DNA of 61,479 nt from assembly GCA_013619125.1 (NCBI GenBank), contig JABXKS010000023.1:1-61479 (forward strand). Reading direction: 5' to 3'. Made by a program: the position numbers and the translations under genes. The notes below the pieces were generated by a model, which was not told the DNA's origin, did not search any database, and saw only the letters and a program-made list of their open reading frames with translations. This DNA is from Clostridiales bacterium. GTDB lineage: Bacteria > Bacillota > Clostridia > Tissierellales > GPF-1. Every line of letters begins with the position of its first letter. Within the stretch, counting starts at the first letter, position 1. Below, one piece after another: positions 1,518 through 52,581 of the stretch.

Positions 1518-2210
1518 TTACCAATAAATATCTGTCAATTTTCTTAATCCCATTGGATCCAGAAGCCGAAAACATCGGCCGTCATAGATAATATATCCCT
1601 CTGCTTTTAATTCCTTCAGCACATTGGTGATGGTTACCCTTGAACATCCCACCGCATCTGCCAGTTCCTGATGGGTATAGACATATTCGATCGTTGATGG
1701 CTCACGGGTATCATTGCCATGTTGTGCCGTAATTTCCAAGAGTGTATCGCTTATGCGCGCCTTTACATCCAACAAAATAGTTCTTGCTGATTTTAACATC
1801 AATATCCGATATTTTCTCGTGATGGAGTGAATAAAATGGCGGTATAATATAGGGGTTTCTTGCAAGGCTCCCTCCACGATCTCTCTTGAAACAATCGATG
1901 CCTCACTATTTTCCAACACCTTTGTAATCATAATGGTCGGTTCTCCATCAAAATAATCCATCTCTCCAAAGATCGTTCCCCTCCGAAGTCGAAATAACGA
2001 GCATTCTTTTCCATTGCGATTAATCAATACCTGCTTAAAGTATCCACTTAAAACAATATAAATTTCATCCGCTCTTGTTGGATGAATGATTTCTCCTTTT
2101 TTAAAGACACGTCGGTTTCCCAATGGCGCCAAATATTCGAGGTAGAATTGACTCATCTCTTGTTGCAATTCCTCATTAAATAATACATTTCTCATATTAT
2201 TATTTTCCAT
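1518..2210 (-). CDS. Crp/Fnr family transcriptional regulator
   Basis: A 230-residue protein with an N-terminal cyclic-nucleotide-binding-type beta barrel (about residues 30-120, with IYIVLSGYFKQVLI and a GTIFGEMDYF turn), a dimer helix, and a C-terminal winged helix-turn-helix (about 180-210, THQELADAVGCSRVTITNVL). It should bind DNA as a dimer in response to a small effector. The N-terminal cysteines of FNR-type iron-sulfur sensors are absent. A longer frame begins ten codons upstream, but the start used here has AGGAGGG at six bases, which decides it. That ribosome binding site lies inside a long hairpin. Targets are unknown; the neighbouring MATE gene is one possibility. Confidence 0.9.
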   Translation of the reverse strand: MENNNMRNVLFNEELQQEMSQFYLEYLAPLGNRRVFKKGEIIHPTRADEIYIVLSGYFKQVLINRNGKECSLFRLRRGTIFGEMDYFDGEPTIMITKVLENSEASIVSREIVEGALQETPILYRHFIHSITRKYRILMLKSARTILLDVKARISDTLLEITAQHGNDTREPSTIEYVYTHQELADAVGCSRVTITNVLKELKAEGYIIYDGRCFRLLDPMGLRKLTDIYW

Positions 2211-2255
2211 AAAGAACCCTCCTCTTTGATAGTATATCAAAAAGGAGGGTTCTTT
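2211..2255 (-). terminator. 21-bp hairpin: terminator of the upstream operon and RBS-containing leader of the Crp-type gene
   Basis: Positions 2211-2231 and 2235-2255 are inverted copies (21 bp, one mismatch) around a three-base loop. On the minus strand it follows the gamma-glutamylcyclotransferase stop codon directly and ends in TTCTTT, so it can terminate transcription in that direction; the A-rich other flank suggests it works both ways. The descending arm contains the AGGAGGG of the next gene (2217-2223), so read-through RNA would hide that ribosome binding site. A TATACT that could be a -10 box spans the loop (2231-2236), but no good -35 is visible. Confidence 0.8.
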
Positions 2256-9557: not shown

Positions 9558-9586
9558 TTGACATCGTTCGAAGCATTCTCTATAAT
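9558..9586 (+). promoter_or_regulatory. Consensus sigma-A promoter for rpmH
   Basis: TTGACA (9558-9563) and TATAAT (9581-9586) are perfect matches to both consensus boxes with a 17-base spacer, 82 bases before rpmH. It is probably one of the strongest promoters in the window. Confidence 0.92.
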
Positions 9587-43519: not shown

Positions 43520-44764
43520 ATGAGTGTAAAAGATTTGGGGAAATTGGCAAAAAGCGCATCGATAAAAATGGCGATCTTGGGCAGCGAAGAAAAGAATCAA
43601 GCCCTGCGAGCGGTAGCGGAAGCATTATTGGCAAAGAAGAAAGAAATTTTGGAAGCCAATGCAAAGGATATGGAGAAAGCGGAAGAAAATGGTGTGCGTG
43701 GATCCCTTTTGGATCGGCTGTTGTTGACCGAAGAACGAATCGAAGGAATTGCGGAAGGCGTTCGCCAAACTGCGGCTTTGAATGATCCGGTTGGCGAGGT
43801 ACTATGGATGAGAACCCACCCCAATGGCATGACCTATGGGCAGAAACGGGTGCCGATTGGTGTTTTGGGCATGATTTATGAAGCGAGACCCAATGTTACG
43901 GTGGATGCTTTTGCTTTGAGCTTCAAATCGGGGAATGCTGTGATTCTTAGAGGGGGAAAGGAAGCCTTCGAAACCAATCAGGTGTTTGTCAAGATTATTA
44001 AAGAGGCGTTGTCATCAGCTGGATCAATTCCGGAAGCTGTGCAGATGCTGGAAGATCCATCCCGTGAAACTGCACGAGAACTGATGCAGTTGAATGAATA
44101 TCTGGATGTGCTGATTCCACGAGGCGGTGCTGGATTGATTAAATCCGTTATCGAGAATGCAAGTGTGCCGGTGATCGAGACCGGTGTTGGGAATTGTCAT
44201 ACTTATGTTGATGAAAGTGCAGATCTGGAGAAGGCGAAGCCGATTGTCATCAATGCGAAGGTGCAACGCCCTGGAGTCTGCAATGCGTTGGAAACCCTCT
44301 TGGTGCATGAAGCGGTTGCGGATGAGTTCCTTCCGGCAATGCTTCAAGAGTTGAAAGAGAATGGCGTGGAAATCCATGGCGATGAGCGTGTTTGTTCATT
44401 TGATGATTCGGTAATTCCAGCCACTGAATGGGATTGGGAAAATGAATATTTGGATCTGAAGTTGGCGATCCGCGTGGTTCCGAGTGTTGAAGCGGCGATC
44501 GAGCATATTGCCAAGTACAGCACCAAGCATTCGGAAGCGATTTTAACGGAAAGCTATTCCGCGTCACAAAAATTCTTAAATGAAGTGGACGCGGCAGCAG
44601 TCTATGTGAATGCCTCCACTCGATTCACCGATGGATCGGAATTCGGGTTTGGCGCGGAGATCGGCATATCGACGCAAAAGCTGCATGCCCGAGGACCAAT
44701 GGGTGTTGAGGCTTTGACTACAACCAAGTATATTATCTATGGAAACGGTCAGATTCGAGGTTGA
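43520..44764 (+). CDS. proA: Gamma-glutamyl phosphate reductase
   Basis: A 414-residue NADPH-dependent reductase of the aldehyde dehydrogenase superfamily. Catalytic cysteine is in RPGVCNALETLLVH (about 254); GGKEAFETNQ and FGFGAEIGISTQKLHARGP are family hallmarks. It starts on the base after the proB stop. The third gene of the pathway, proC, is 13 kb away at 57460. Confidence 0.97.
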   Translation: MSVKDLGKLAKSASIKMAILGSEEKNQALRAVAEALLAKKKEILEANAKDMEKAEENGVRGSLLDRLLLTEERIEGIAEGVRQTAALNDPVGEVLWMRTHPNGMTYGQKRVPIGVLGMIYEARPNVTVDAFALSFKSGNAVILRGGKEAFETNQVFVKIIKEALSSAGSIPEAVQMLEDPSRETARELMQLNEYLDVLIPRGGAGLIKSVIENASVPVIETGVGNCHTYVDESADLEKAKPIVINAKVQRPGVCNALETLLVHEAVADEFLPAMLQELKENGVEIHGDERVCSFDDSVIPATEWDWENEYLDLKLAIRVVPSVEAAIEHIAKYSTKHSEAILTESYSASQKFLNEVDAAAVYVNASTRFTDGSEFGFGAEIGISTQKLHARGPMGVEALTTTKYIIYGNGQIRG

Positions 44765-44788
44765 CACAATACCCCTATTGGGTATAAT
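44761..44788 (+). promoter_or_regulatory. Promoter with CsoR/CstR-like operator for the thioredoxin-like gene
   Basis: TTGACA (44761-44766, overlapping the proA stop) and TATAAT (44783-44788) with a 16-base spacer. The spacer holds the dyad ATACCC-N5-GGGTAT (44769-44785), whose right arm enters the -10 box. C-tract/G-tract dyads of this type are bound by CsoR-family repressors (copper or persulfide sensors). No CsoR-family gene is in the window. Confidence 0.68.
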
Positions 44789-44806
44789 GGTTTCAGGAGG
44801 AAGACC

Positions 44807-45130
44807 ATGAAATCATTATTGGAAATGCAAGAAATTGAGAAATTTATAGCGGAATCCGGATTTCGTTTGGTATATTTTGCATCGGAAGCTTGTTCAGTAT
44901 GTCAGTCGATGCGTCAAGAGGTTCAGGCTCGGTATCAAGAGCAGAAGAATATGGATGTAGGACTCGTCATGATCGAGGAAGTGCCGGAAGCAAGAGGGCG
45001 ATATCAGGTTTTTGCAGCGCCGACAATCCATGTGTATTTTAACGGACAGCGAGTATATGAAGCGAGTCGGTTTTTGCGGTTGGAAGAGCTTGATCAAATG
45101 ATGGAACGGATTGAAGAAATCAATCGATAA
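44807..45130 (+). CDS. Thioredoxin-like protein with CSVC motif
   Basis: A 107-residue thioredoxin fold with FASEACSVCQSM (redox CxxC at about 26-29) and the cis-proline segment VFAAPTIHVYFNG. The CSVC motif and lack of a tryptophan before it separate it from housekeeping thioredoxin (WCGPC). It is likely a specialised disulfide or persulfide reductase, in agreement with the CsoR/CstR-like operator at its promoter (inference). It is monocistronic, with its own promoter and terminator. Confidence 0.88.
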   Translation: MKSLLEMQEIEKFIAESGFRLVYFASEACSVCQSMRQEVQARYQEQKNMDVGLVMIEEVPEARGRYQVFAAPTIHVYFNGQRVYEASRFLRLEELDQMMERIEEINR

Positions 45131-46491: not shown

Positions 46492-47352
46492 CTATTGATT
46501 TTCAAATGGATCTGCGGCATGATAGCTGCTTCGGACAAAAGGTCCGCTTGAGACATGGGCAAATCCAAGGGATTTGGCGAAGGCTTCATAGGCTTTGAAT
46601 TGTTCGGGGGTCACATATTCCACAACCTCAGCGTGTGCTTTGCTTGGCGCTAAATATTGGCCGACCGTTAGCATTTCACACCCGTGATCGTATAGGTCGC
46701 ACAAGACCTGTTGAACCTCTTCAGGCGTCTCTCCCAAACCGACCATAATACCGGACTTGGTTTTGATGTGAGGCGCGGCCTCCTTGACTCGTTGAATCAA
46801 GGTGAGGGTTTGCTGATAGTTTGCCTCAGGTCGAATGGTGTCATAGAGTCTTGAAATCGTCTCGATATTGTGGTTGAGGACTTCGGGCGCCGCATCGATC
46901 ACAGTCTGTAGCGCGGTGGCGTTTCCTTGAAAGTCAGGAATCAGAACCTCGATGTTTACATCGGGGGTTTTTGCTTTGATGGCACGAATCGTTTTGGCAA
47001 AGTGATTGGCGCCGCCATCCGGTAAATCATCACGAGTGACTGAGGTGATGACCGCATATTTAAGTCCCAAAGTCTCGACCGCTTCTGCTACTTTTTCGGG
47101 TTCTTGAGGGTCGGGTGCGATGGCAGTGCCATGTGTAACATTACAGAACTTGCAGTTTCGTGTGCACTGACTGCCTAAAATCATAAAGGTTGCGGTGCGT
47201 TTGCTGAAGCACTCGTATTGATTGGGGCAATTGGCTTCTTGGCAGACGGTAAGCAAACCCGTTTTTTCAATGAGTTTTTTAACTCGAGCCATTTCTTTGG
47301 GGCGATAGGCTTGCATGTCGATGCGCAGCCATTCTGGTTTACGTTTGATCAT
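46492..47352 (-). CDS. lipA: Lipoyl synthase
   Basis: A 286-residue radical SAM enzyme that inserts sulfur into octanoyl groups. It carries both clusters: the auxiliary cluster cysteines in [12 protein letters not shown] and the radical SAM motif [10 protein letters not shown]. The C-terminal RSSYHA serine ligand is present. It follows the lipoate ligase gene by 11 bases, so the two form an operon for making and salvaging lipoyl groups. Confidence 0.97.
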
Positions 47353-47363
47353 TGGTTCCTCCT

Positions 47364-48344
47364 TTAAAACAATAGGGAGAGCAATTCTTCTGCAGGGATC
47401 CCATAAAAATACTCCTCGAGTGGAAATTGTTGGAGCACAGAGAGCAGGATTTCTGGATCATGGCGCTGCCCGATCATAGCAATTTGGATATCCATCAAGT
47501 CAAGGCGACTAAGGAAATCACCATGAAAAACGATATCGGTCACGATTCCTTTTTGCACGGAAAGATCAATTTCAACAATTCCACCGGCAAATCGGTGTTC
47601 ACGATGAAAGTCATATTTGGGCGACTGACCAATGGTCCAATTCCAGTCTCGATACTTGTTATCGGCAATTTTTTCAATTGCTATAATCTCTTTCGCCGTA
47701 AAGTCGCGAACGATGGCATCCGGGTCTTTCGACAGCATATGGGCATAGATTAATTCGCGGAAAGCAAGCACATCCATCGGTTCCTTTAGGTGAGAAGCGA
47801 TATTGGTCACTCGTTTTGCTGCGGATTCAATGCCTCGATCTTTGTACTTGAGCGGATCGGTCTTCAAAGCGCCGGCAAGGTCTTTCAGGTCGGCTGAAAA
47901 CAGAAGGGTTCCGTGGTGGAGGAGACGATTCTTTATTCGATATTGCGCATTCCCAGAAAACTTTTGTCCTTCAATCGTTAAATCGTTTCGTCCACTAAAG
48001 ATGGCAGGAATCTCCATTTGATTGAGAACTTCTAAAATGGGTTTTGTGAAGAGCCGGTAATTATTGACCTTTTCCGTTCCATGGTTTTCAATAAAGGAAA
48101 AGTTTATATTTCCCAAATCACAGAAAACCGTTCCACCGCCAGAGGAGCGGCGAACCAGTAGGATCTCTCTTTCTTTGATATAGTCAAGGTTCACTTGCTT
48201 CCAAGCGTTCTGGTTTTTCCCCAAGAGGATACATTTCTTTGCGCGCCAGAGCATAAAAACGGGTTCTAGGGTATTTTCCATTAAGAAATCTTCGGCGGCA
48301 TGAAAAAATGGTGCATCGGTACGATCACTGCGAATTATAAGCAC
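47364..48344 (-). CDS. lplA: Lipoate--protein ligase
   Basis: A 326-residue ligase that attaches free lipoate to carrier domains. Motifs are [20 protein letters not shown] (about 73-92), with the C-terminal accessory domain after residue 250 present. The start is assigned to GTG with GGGGAGG six bases upstream; a TTG five codons earlier lies inside that ribosome binding site. Its leader is folded into a terminator hairpin discussed separately. lipA follows in the same operon. Confidence 0.94.
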
Positions 48345-48397
48345 AAAAAGCCTCCCCAATTTTTCTTCATTATAAGGGGAGGCTTCGTACCTGTCAA
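48345..48397 (-). promoter_or_regulatory. lplA promoter threaded through a terminator hairpin
   Basis: On the minus strand TTGACA (48397-48392) and TATAAT (48374-48369) are spaced by 17 bases. The spacer contains AAGCCTCCCC (48385-48376), which pairs perfectly with GGGGAGGCTT (48357-48348), the lplA ribosome binding site, and five T follow. RNA arriving from pepT would form the 10-bp terminator; RNA started at this promoter (near 48362) lacks the ascending arm and keeps the site free. Confidence 0.85.
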
Positions 48398-48416: not shown

Positions 48417-49628
48417 CTAATTGATGGTTCGTTTGGCAATTTCAACCAATAAGGAAACGGCCTTTTCCATCGATTCAACAGGAATGAATTCATATCGTCC
48501 ATGGTAGTTGTGCCCGCCGGTGAAAAGGTTCGGGCATGGGAGTCCCATATAGGATAATCGCGCGCCGTCAGTACCGCCTCGGATGGGGTCAATCCTCGGA
48601 GTAATACCGATTGCCTCCATGGCATCAAGGGCATTTTGTACGACGTGATAATGAGGGAGTATCATTTCCTTCATATTTTGATAGCTGTCTTCGATGCAAA
48701 CTGAAATCAGTTCTTGTTTATATTTCTCATTGAGTTGGTTCGCACATTTTAGAAAATAGCTTTTTCGCCATTCAAAAGCGAATGCGTCGTGATCCCGAAT
48801 GATATAATCGAGGGTCGCTTCTTCAACGCTGGCATTGGTTTTCATCAGATGGAAAAATCCCTCATATCCTTCCGTGTATTCCGGTCGGTCGAAAGTGGGT
48901 AGCATGGCATCAAATTCCATGGCGAGGTGATTCGCGTTGATCATTTTATGTTTCGCGCTGCCTGGATGAACATTTCTGCCCTGGATTGTAACGGTTCCAG
49001 AAGCTGCATTAAAGTTTTCGAACTCGATGGAGCCCAAGGCGCCGCCGTCAATGGTATAAGCGAAATCTGCTGCAAAAGCGGCTACATCGAAATTGTCAGC
49101 ACCTTGACCGACTTCTTCATCCGGGGTAAAGGCAAGCTTGATGGTGCCATGGGGAAGTTCTGGATTTTGCACCAAGGTTTCAATGGCTGTTAAGATTTCA
49201 GCGATTCCTGCCTTGTCATCGGCACCCAAAAGGGTGTTTCCATCGGTTGTGATTAGGGTTTGCCCAAGATAGTCTTTCAGTTCCGGAAAATCAGCTGGAT
49301 TCAATTTGAATTGTTTATTCAGTGAAATGATTCCACCATCGTAGTTTTCAATAAACTGGGGCTGTACCTGGTCACCAGAAAGATCTGGAGAAGTGTCCAT
49401 GTGGGCAATCCACCCCATAACGGGGGCGCCATCTATATTCCCGGGCAAGGTTGCCGTAACAATGCCGTATTCGGAAACAGAGACTTGCGTCAAGCCGAGG
49501 TCCTTGCATTCTTCTTCCAATAGACGAGCAAGTTCCCATTGTACATCGGTGCTGGGGAATTGGTCGGTTCCCTCTTTTGATTGCGTATTGATTTTTACAT
49601 AACGGATAAAGCGTTCAACAACGGTCAT
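48417..49628 (-). CDS. pepT: Peptidase T (tripeptide aminopeptidase)
   Basis: A 403-residue di-zinc M20B peptidase that removes N-terminal residues from tripeptides. Metal and catalytic motifs are IAHMDTS (about 78-84), LGADDKAGIAE (about 138), TPDEEVGQGAD and, near the C-terminus, NLFTGGHNYHG. Start follows GAAGGAGG. It is upstream of lplA-lipA on the same strand but separated by a terminator. Confidence 0.97.
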   Translation of the reverse strand: MTVVERFIRYVKINTQSKEGTDQFPSTDVQWELARLLEEECKDLGLTQVSVSEYGIVTATLPGNIDGAPVMGWIAHMDTSPDLSGDQVQPQFIENYDGGIISLNKQFKLNPADFPELKDYLGQTLITTDGNTLLGADDKAGIAEILTAIETLVQNPELPHGTIKLAFTPDEEVGQGADNFDVAAFAADFAYTIDGGALGSIEFENFNAASGTVTIQGRNVHPGSAKHKMINANHLAMEFDAMLPTFDRPEYTEGYEGFFHLMKTNASVEEATLDYIIRDHDAFAFEWRKSYFLKCANQLNEKYKQELISVCIEDSYQNMKEMILPHYHVVQNALDAMEAIGITPRIDPIRGGTDGARLSYMGLPCPNLFTGGHNYHGRYEFIPVESMEKAVSLLVEIAKRTIN

Positions 49629-50944: not shown

Positions 50945-51394
50945 ATGAAATTATCAACAAAAGGCCGTTACGGTTTAAAAGCGATGTTTGATTTAGCCTT
51001 AAATGATGGCTCCGGGCCTGTCAGTCTAACGGCAATTTCAGAGAGGCAAGGAATCTCAATTCATTATTTGGAACAACTGGTGAGTCCTTTGCGAAAAGCA
51101 GGATTGCTGAAAAGTGTTCGCGGCGCGCAAGGCGGTTATTTATTGGCCAAGCTGCCGGCGGAGATCAGCGTGAGAGAAATTCTTGAGCTGTTGGAAGGTC
51201 CTTTGGCACCTGCAGCTTGTGTCACCGATGAAAAGAATTCTTGCAGTCATTCGGATTTATGTGTTTCCAGAATGATTTATGATCGGATTTATGCAAGCAT
51301 TAACGAGGTTGTGGACAATATCAGCCTACAAGATATGTTAGATGAACAATATCGGAATCTTCAAGATTCCATACCAGATATGAATAACAAATAG
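50945..51394 (+). CDS. Rrf2 family regulator (IscR-like)
   Basis: A 149-residue winged-helix regulator starting MKLSTKGRYGLKAMFDLA. Three cysteines in ACVTDEKNSCSHSDLC (spacing C-x7-C-x5-C, about 92-106) could bind an iron-sulfur cluster, as in IscR, though the first spacing differs from the E. coli protein. It heads an operon with a cysteine desulfurase and a scaffold protein and so probably matches cluster synthesis to demand. Confidence 0.92.
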   Translation: MKLSTKGRYGLKAMFDLALNDGSGPVSLTAISERQGISIHYLEQLVSPLRKAGLLKSVRGAQGGYLLAKLPAEISVREILELLEGPLAPAACVTDEKNSCSHSDLCVSRMIYDRIYASINEVVDNISLQDMLDEQYRNLQDSIPDMNNK

Positions 51395-51405
51395 GAGGGA
51401 ACGGG

Positions 51406-52581
51406 ATGCGTCAAGTATATATGGATTATTCGGCAACAACTCCTGTTAAGGAAGAAGTCCTGCAGGAAATGATCCCTTATTTTACTGAAAAATTTGGGAA
51501 TGCCTCAAGTATTTATTCGACTGGCCGACAAGCCAAGCATGAGATGGACGCTGCGAGAAAGCGGATCACCGATCGACTGCACTGTGCGCCGGAGGAATTG
51601 TATTTTACATCCGGCGGGTCAGAGGCTGACAACTGGGCGATTAAGGGCATTGCAAAGGCAAGAAGAAGCAAAGGGAATCATATCATAACAAGCAAAATCG
51701 AACATCATGCCGTTTTGCATGTTTGCGAAACCCTGGAAAAAGAGGGATTTGATGTTACGTATTTAGATGTGGATGCAAAAGGGTTTGTGGATCCAAAGGC
51801 GGTGGAAGCCGCGATTACCGATCAAACCATTTTGATTACGGTGATGTATATCAATAATGAGATTGGCACCATCGAGCCCATTGTTGAAATTGGAGAGATT
51901 GCAAGAAAGCATCAGATTGTGTTTCATACGGATGCTGTGCAGGCGTTGGGGAATCTACCAATTGATTTGAGTCAATTGCCCGTCGATCTGATGTCCTTTT
52001 CAGCCCATAAGGTTTATGGCCCGAAAGGGGTCGGTGCCCTCTATGTGCGAAAAGGGATTCGCTTGCCGAATTTGATAGAAGGTGGAGCGCAAGAGCGGCG
52101 AAGACGCGCCGGCACTGAAAATGTCGCTGGGATCGTTGGATTCGCCAAGGCGGTGGACCTTGCCTATGATCATTTTGATGAGCATGTGGAGCGGTTGATT
52201 GCCATGCGCGAGAGGCTGATCGAAGGCTTGCTCGATTCCATTCCAGATACCCGCGTAAGCGGAGACCGGAAGCAACGACATCCCGGGAATGTGCATGTAT
52301 GCTTTAAATATATTGAAGGGGAGTCCATTTTGTTGAGTTTGGACATGATGGGAATTGCCGGTTCAAGCGGATCCGCATGTACCTCCGGTTCCTTGGATCC
52401 ATCCCATGTATTGATGGCCATAGGATTGGGACACGATATTGCCCATGGATCCTTGCGATTAACGATTGGTGACTTTACCACAGAAGACGATATTGATTAT
52501 GTTTTGGAGCAGCTTCCACCGATTATTGATCGATTGAGAAGGATGTCGCCATTATATGAACAAGCGAAAGGGGCAGAATAA
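51406..52581 (+). CDS. iscS: Cysteine desulfurase IscS/NifS
   Basis: A 391-residue PLP enzyme that provides sulfur for iron-sulfur clusters. Start VYMDYSATTPVKEEV, PLP lysine in SFSAHKVYGPKG (about 201) and the flexible-loop active cysteine in GSACTSGSLDPSH (about 326). It lies 11 bases after the Rrf2 gene; the scaffold gene begins one base after its stop. Confidence 0.96.
   Translation: MRQVYMDYSATTPVKEEVLQEMIPYFTEKFGNASSIYSTGRQAKHEMDAARKRITDRLHCAPEELYFTSGGSEADNWAIKGIAKARRSKGNHIITSKIEHHAVLHVCETLEKEGFDVTYLDVDAKGFVDPKAVEAAITDQTILITVMYINNEIGTIEPIVEIGEIARKHQIVFHTDAVQALGNLPIDLSQLPVDLMSFSAHKVYGPKGVGALYVRKGIRLPNLIEGGAQERRRRAGTENVAGIVGFAKAVDLAYDHFDEHVERLIAMRERLIEGLLDSIPDTRVSGDRKQRHPGNVHVCFKYIEGESILLSLDMMGIAGSSGSACTSGSLDPSHVLMAIGLGHDIAHGSLRLTIGDFTTEDDIDYVLEQLPPIIDRLRRMSPLYEQAKGAE

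Follow-up and report, generated by a model that had tools for sequence, protein, structure and literature searches.

What does it mean for a gene when its promoter, its ribosome-binding site and a terminator-like hairpin share the same few bases? The question is raised by the start of lplA, a lipoate-protein ligase gene located in a stretch of 61,479 nucleotides (nt) from a Clostridiales bacterium (assembly GCA_013619125.1, contig JABXKS010000023.1), the whole of which is called the window below. On the minus strand, the 56 bases that close with the lplA start codon hold, in this order, TTGACA, a 17-nt spacer, TATAAT, GAAGAAAAATT, GGGGAGG, CTTTTT and GTG. They may be seen as a composite boundary element between the upstream pepT-like gene (pepT hereafter) and the lplA-lipA unit: with moderate confidence, we take as the best reading that the hairpin terminates transcription of pepT and also masks the Shine-Dalgarno sequence (SD) of lplA, the masking acting only on RNA begun upstream. 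As a prediction this reading holds up, and it is backed by the conservation seen in three species.

Architecture and conservation of the lplA start

The lplA promoter, of the sigma-70/SigA type, matches the consensus at 12 of 12 positions with a 17-nt spacing (48397-48369, minus strand), and it is threaded through a 10-bp GC-rich hairpin whose arms flank an 18-nt loop and whose 8-bp core spans 48350-48383 (Table 1). The original prediction had set the ascending arm within the 17-base spacer and the -10 box within the loop, and both placements proved exact to the base. It had also identified the descending arm with the ribosome-binding site of lplA and seen the T-run touch the GTG codon, and the sequence agrees on both points; the packing of terminator, promoter and ribosome-binding site into 56 bases stands as anatomy. 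The T-run is found only on the lplA side of the dyad, the loop contains neither an inner stem nor an inner palindrome, and the 8-bp core dyad occurs at a single place in the 3.42-Mb source genome (G000). Alignments with the nearest homologues extend to the first residues after the GTG. The flanking genes are co-directional, which leaves no divergent gene that could use the left arm as its SD.

Perfect promoters are scarce in this DNA, with three in the window against 0.04 expected and 30 in the genome against one for the pattern read backward. A 71-nt segment comprising the element folds at -25.9 kcal/mol, against a mean of -12.4 for its shuffles (z -4.93; equalled by none of 200), and RNA from near the predicted transcription start folds more weakly than its own shuffles (z +1.31).

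Conservation was assessed in 150 genomes, among which at least two congeners, G001 and G002, were found; the sequence upstream of lplA in the Eubacteriales bacterium isolate CSMAG_119 (L001) is the same as in G002. Both congeners keep the 12 of 12 promoter, CCTCCCC in the spacer, GGGGAGG, a T-run (of six T) and GTG, with a promoter spacing of 17 in G001 and 18 in G002. Between the three species, LplA proteins are 88-91% identical and third-codon identity is 0.58-0.65, with 47 of 113 fourfold sites of lplA identical in all three. The spacer heptamer CCTCCCC is invariant at 7 of 7 positions. The fourfold sites of lplA form 107 stretches of seven in a row, none of which is invariant throughout; at the fourfold-site rate, the probability that seven spacer bases all stay the same would be about 0.002. 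The outer half of the spacer, by contrast, varies among the three species. The pair just outside the invariant seven reads G-C in the source genome; G001 has G-U there, and G002 has A-U. Just inside the seven, both congeners have an extra A-U pair. Such conservation at the level of the genus argues for selection on the hairpin.

Table 1. Positions of the lplA start element, its neighbouring genes and the second hairpin, numbered along the window.
Feature	Position	Strand	Remarks
-35 box TTGACA, 6/6 consensus	48392..48397	-	identical in both congeners
Promoter spacer, 17 nt	48375..48391	-	
Left (ascending) arm AAGCCTCCCC, entirely inside the spacer	48376..48385	-	CCTCCCC same in three species
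-10 box TATAAT, 6/6 consensus, within hairpin loop	48369..48374	-	identical in both congeners
Hairpin loop, 18 nt, contains -10	48358..48375	-	
Predicted transcription start	48362	-	inferred from -10 position
Right (descending) arm GGGGAGGCTT; its GGGGAGG forms the lplA SD	48348..48357	-	
T-run T5, abutting start codon	48345..48349	-	6 T in both congeners
GTG start of lplA	48342..48344	-	
lplA, lipoate-protein ligase, 326 residues	47364..48344	-	GTG start; Pfam LplA-B_cat and Lip_prot_lig_C; frame kept in three species
M20 peptidase gene, pepT-like, upstream, co-directional	48417..49628	-	stop 31 nt before left arm
Radical-SAM gene, lipA-like, downstream, co-directional	46492..47352	-	name from sequence and context
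Second hairpin, similar layout; TGATATACT (extended -10-like) in loop; right arm GAGGAGGG	2211..2255	-	right arm is the SD of the Crp/Fnr-type regulator
Crp/Fnr-type regulator gene	1518-2210	-	HTH_Crp_2 and cNMP_binding

Proposed mechanism and competing explanations

Mechanistically, a polymerase arriving from pepT would transcribe both arms, and the hairpin followed by the T-run would end some or much of that transcription. In the RNA that escapes, the SD of lplA would be locked in the stem and poorly translated, so that masking would catch what passes the terminator. RNA begun at the embedded promoter would start some 14 nt past the left arm and so would lack the hairpin, its leader being about 18 nt long and its SD more open. 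The expression of lplA would thereby be tied to its own promoter, which is the presumed benefit of the arrangement. Since the predicted start (~48362) comes only after the left arm, the hairpin should form in read-through RNA alone, and the distance of 31 nt between the pepT stop and the left arm implies that a ribosome ending pepT should not cover it.

Folding was predicted for a read-through RNA including 130 nt upstream of the SD and for a native RNA beginning at the predicted start. In the former, the hairpin reaches about -17 to -19 kcal/mol and the SD has, in each of the three species, a predicted probability of 0.000 of being unpaired; in the latter, this probability is 0.266 in the source genome, 0.168 in G002 and 0.373 in G001. 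For the start codon, the corresponding predictions are 0.555, 0.006 and 0.402 in native RNA, and 0.003, 0.390 and 0.395 in read-through RNA. The original prediction had held that native transcripts cannot form the hairpin: the position of the predicted start upholds this, and the SD is predicted to be clearly more open in native RNA, though not fully free (0.17-0.37).

With a GC-rich stem directly before a T-run, the element has the form of an intrinsic terminator, and termination there is plausible, perhaps partial. A total of 115 terminator-like sites were found after 399 genes in a 461-kb sample; the 9-bp hairpin at lplA (-17.7 kcal/mol, with the tail TTTTGT after the ninth pair) ranks 24th of these in energy. 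The short loop that also marks intrinsic terminators is lacking at lplA (18 nt), and the hairpin is absent from the list of a simple terminator scan that was limited to loops of 3-8 nt.

Several observations weigh against this account of termination combined with masking. With regard to conservation, the stretch between the -10 box and the SD is also nearly invariant, so that conservation is not limited to the arms. The A that pairs in G002 is placed by the aligner as an insertion (hence the 18-nt spacer), and for this reason one compensatory event at most can be counted; the C to T change alone could be explained by selection for a longer T-run. The evidence covers three species, and farther afield no such stem is seen: none of the 26 more distant lplA homologues whose SD could be scored is preceded by one at a score of 18 or more. 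These come from 32 loci, which are homologues rather than confirmed orthologues, namely 27 listed from the order (where 106 genomes had a match) and five from Bacteroidetes; six of them (the five from Bacteroidetes and L061) have no SD by the rule applied. With regard to folding, native RNA is predicted to pair the SD most of the time, the native start codon of G002 is almost always paired (0.006), and the start codon in read-through RNA of both congeners is open at about 0.39. With regard to termination, an 18-nt loop is unusual, loops of at least 12 nt being found at 13 of the 115 terminator-like sites, that of lplA included, and some of the other long-loop sites show by eye an inner pairing that lplA does not have. 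A loop of this size without an inner stem, together with only five T before the GTG, may make for weak termination.

If the hairpin were the terminator of pepT and nothing more, in a compact genome where terminator, promoter and SD came to share bases by accident and masking has no selected role, its place 31 nt past the pepT stop, in a 72-bp gap where no other terminator-like site is listed, and its energy rank of 24 among 115 would be in keeping. A merger of GGAGG with a T-run before a start codon would also be easy: a strong SD stem precedes 9 of the 40 genes that carry TTTT within the 10 nt upstream of the start, and 37 of the remaining 651 (Fisher p 7e-4). A long loop carrying a -10 box is nevertheless a bad design for termination, and the SD lies in the arm in all three species, which makes this simpler account, in our view, unlikely although worth keeping in mind. 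An operator fares worse. A repressor bound to GCCTCCCC...GGGGAGGC across the lplA -10 box would find its dyad centred near -10, where operators typically lie; two similar hairpins, those of a Crp/Fnr and an XRE gene, carry an inner palindrome on the -10 box, as autoregulation would give, and an open reading frame (ORF) resembling by eye an Rrf2-type regulator is located about 2.6 kb off (50945-51394). However, the loop at lplA has no inner palindrome and its T-run is one-sided, the dyad is at one place in G000 and its exact form is absent from G001 and G002, no regulator gene adjoins (the immediate neighbours being pepT-like and lipA-like), and the G-U pair in G001 suits RNA better than a DNA dyad, all of which renders an operator at this site very improbable. 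Chance pairing of a pyrimidine-rich spacer with the SD deserves as little credence: the lplA SD stem scores 27.5, permuting the upstream regions of 259 genes yields on average 0.7 stems with a score of 24 or more in each run, about one case per few hundred genes when the window holds some 54 at the sample density (404 genes in 461 kb), and without conservation the stem score would indeed be a one-in-a-few-hundred-genes curiosity, but the arms are the same in three species despite strongly diverged silent sites, and the changes seen preserve the pairs.

Possible recurrence of the layout, with other features of the window

The original prediction had hinted at a recurrent design in this genome, which is only partly borne out. 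What stands of this hint is a set of strong single cases (a Crp/Fnr gene in the window, an ABC-ATPase gene and, in another family, an XRE gene); a broad excess differed from one genome to the next and was weak once set beside controls for composition.

The individual cases of similar layout look real. In the window, the hairpin before the Crp/Fnr-type regulator gene (Table 1) is about 20 bp long and includes a TTTGATA-TAC-TATCAAA palindrome over TGATATACT; by eye, its stem is largely kept, being one base shorter on the left in G002 and having one mismatch in G001. This hairpin is possibly an autoregulatory operator besides a mask of the SD. At L103:8766, an ABC-transporter ATPase gene that follows a Lon-like gene (both recognized by eye) has its SD in the right arm and T6 touching the ATG; in G001, both sides of its stem have changed so that a C-G pair reads U-A. 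The promoter boxes of this gene are weak, and conservation is lacking for the -35-like one. In G008, a genome from another family of the same order, an XRE-like regulator gene (L211:12950-13303) shows TTGACA, an SD in the right arm and T7 before the ATG. Among 12 XRE-like loci of this family examined by eye (L233-L240, L247, L248, L263 and L264, of which L240 has a stop in frame), TTGACA is found in all 12 and the outer stem in eight, being lost in four; a TGTAATA-TTA-TATTACA palindrome on the -10 box is kept more widely than the outer stem. Because of the inner palindrome on the -10 box, an autoregulatory operator is a live alternative for both the Crp/Fnr and the XRE cases. A gene which we take to be YceD-like has a perfect promoter and, at the end of its spacer, ACCTCAAT, which pairs with ATTGAGGT at the SD; there is no T-run, and the arrangement is identical in three species. 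As a separate observation, a terminator of the form CCTCC...GGAGG-T8-ATG (L226 ~333-378; G000 C54:8732-8777) has as its right arm the SD of an ORF that reads by eye like a FAD-dependent oxidoreductase; it is kept in G001 (L221) and has no clear promoter in its loop.

The broad test scored stems between the SD and its upstream sequence, with permuted upstream regions and, as a composition control, reversed SD, the lplA rows of G000 and G001 being dropped. At a score of 18 or more, co-directional genes gave 14 of 180 in G000 (permuted mean 6.7, the observed count being reached in 1 of 100 runs; reversed SD 9), 6 of 132 in G001 (4.3 and 6) and 8 of 136 in G008 (3.0 and 5), so that co-directional genes of G001 showed no excess over the reversed-SD control. 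Genes with divergent or unpaired neighbours gave 8 of 78 in G000 (permuted 4.1; reversed 4), 3 of 102 in G001 (3.4; 2) and 4 of 63 in G008 (1.9; 1). At 20 or more, an excess was seen in G008, where the two classes gave 5 of 136 and 4 of 63 (permuted 1.0 and 0.8; reversed 0 and 1). A threshold of 24 left 3, 3 and 0 genes in G000, G001 and G008 when the two orientations were pooled, with permuted means of 0.8, 0.7 and 0.2 and none for reversed SD in any of them. Farther upstream, from -116 to -70, no excess was found in G000 or G008; G001 showed some, with 9 of 80 genes scoring at least 16 where permutation gave 4.8. An earlier permutation, which had no composition control and included lplA, had counted 23 genes of 259 with a score of at least 18, where permuted regions gave 10.3. 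A genome-wide recurrence rule was thus rejected, the excess being inconsistent across G000, G001 and G008.

One narrower class stands out. For the genes with TTTT shortly before the start, counted without the lplA rows of G000 and G001, the nine strong SD stems compare with a permuted mean of 1.4 (maximum 5 in 300 runs), and reversed SD gave 3 of 40 and 22 of 651. This class comes mostly from G008 (4 of 14, p 0.006), with 3 of 15 in G001 (p 0.05) and 2 of 11 in G000 (p 0.2), and some of the nine stems are doubtful by eye, for instance where T runs face A runs. Fusions of terminator and SD probably occur in these genomes, as a rare class. Of the 30 perfect promoters of G000, 23 have an SD start nearby by the rule used; pairing between SD and promoter at a score of 20 or more occurs in two of these (lplA and L026) against 0.1 permuted, a count reached in none of 500 runs. 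Lower thresholds of 18, 16 and 12 give 3 against 0.5, 3 against 1.0 and 5 against 4.8, respectively. With lplA itself included, this test lends weak backing to recurrence. The gene at L026 reads by eye like an ammonium transporter. A count of CCTCC...GGAGG...start patterns (30 in G000 against 8 read backward) was not used as evidence, because the 19 of 30 loci inspected included double listings, palindromes counted on two strands, plain terminators and a divergent pair (L094/L095) where CCTCC is the SD of the other gene.

Taken together, these cases lead us to a tentative and still doubtful generalization, that the order uses origin-sensing starts, in which a promoter-threaded hairpin closed by the SD, often with a terminator tail, would allow a chromosomal gene to be translated only from RNA of its own promoter. 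Recurring at lplA, Crp/Fnr, ABC-ATPase and, in another family, XRE genes, it would amount to the lysozyme trick of phage T4 used as a cellular gene-boundary device.

Other perfect promoters have features of their own. In the window, one at 44761-44807 (plus strand) has a palindrome, ATACCC-CTATT-GGGTAT, running into its -10 box, and a leader of about 12 nt; the palindrome is kept in G001, imperfect in G002, and precedes a 107-residue ORF, thioredoxin-like by eye. Another, at 9558-9586 (plus strand), precedes an ORF whose product resembles ribosomal protein L34, presumably rpmH. Elsewhere in G000, a perfect promoter near position 1501 of L010 (C2:89567-89595) has GAAC-N4-GTTC repeats in its spacer and after the -10 box, which we take to resemble the LexA (SOS) box of Firmicutes, and another, near position 1501 of L009 (C2:60950), is soon followed by a short hairpin and T6, attenuator-like; part of the L009 spacer, TTTCCTAAAGGAA, recurs in both congeners. 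As for the surroundings of lplA, this gene and the lipA-like gene probably share one transcript. ORFs read by eye as an Rrf2-type regulator (50945-51394) and a cysteine desulfurase are found at 50945-52581 (plus strand), near the lipA-like gene. No known RNA family, such as a riboswitch or attenuator leader, was found in the window (0 Rfam matches at the gathering score).

Comparison with known systems

The transposase genes of IS10 and IS50 are insulated from transcription that enters from outside, in that read-through RNA folds over the ribosome-binding site. These are mobile elements, in which promoter and terminator are not known to overlap. Intrinsic terminators between co-directional genes resemble the lplA element in their GC-rich hairpin and T-run soon after a stop codon, but at lplA the 18-nt loop holds a promoter box and the descending arm is the SD of the next gene. 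In Tn916, a terminator near one end acts as an insulator, and the passages of the source concerned with it do not state whether a promoter or an SD lies inside the hairpin (PMC11658703). In the titles and abstract openings of the open-licence matches listed for a few search terms, no terminator was found that both encloses a promoter and lends one arm to the following SD.

The closest parallel is offered by phage T4. Passages of a published account describe how the SD or start codon of gene e (lysozyme), soc, 49 and I-TevI is masked in an RNA helix, the masking of gene e and I-TevI occurring in RNA begun upstream; RNA from the gene's own promoter, without the 5' strand, is well translated, and the longer RNA is not (PMC3014915). 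In phages closely related to T4, according to the same passages, late promoters lie in the region that encodes the 5' strand (PMC3014915). lplA resembles gene e in that its SD is predicted to be paired in upstream-initiated RNA of all three species (unpaired probability 0.000) and, given the predicted start, in having its promoter over the 5' strand, one arm lying between the -35 and -10 boxes. It differs in being chromosomal, in having a consensus promoter of the sigma-70 type, and in its T-run, which should bring about termination as well; the T4 genes, by contrast, belong to a phage, are read from its late promoters and are switched in time. If our reading is correct, a single 56-base element would serve as terminator, promoter, insulator and ribosome-binding site, the translation of lplA would depend on where its RNA began, and operon predictions made from gene spacing could mislead. 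Chromosomal genes would also have in it a natural insulator of small size; as far as the passages cited above go, this idea is best documented for a phage. The logic of masking is thus already known from T4, and what is new at lplA is the chromosomal gene, the terminator form and the perfect sigma-70-type promoter.
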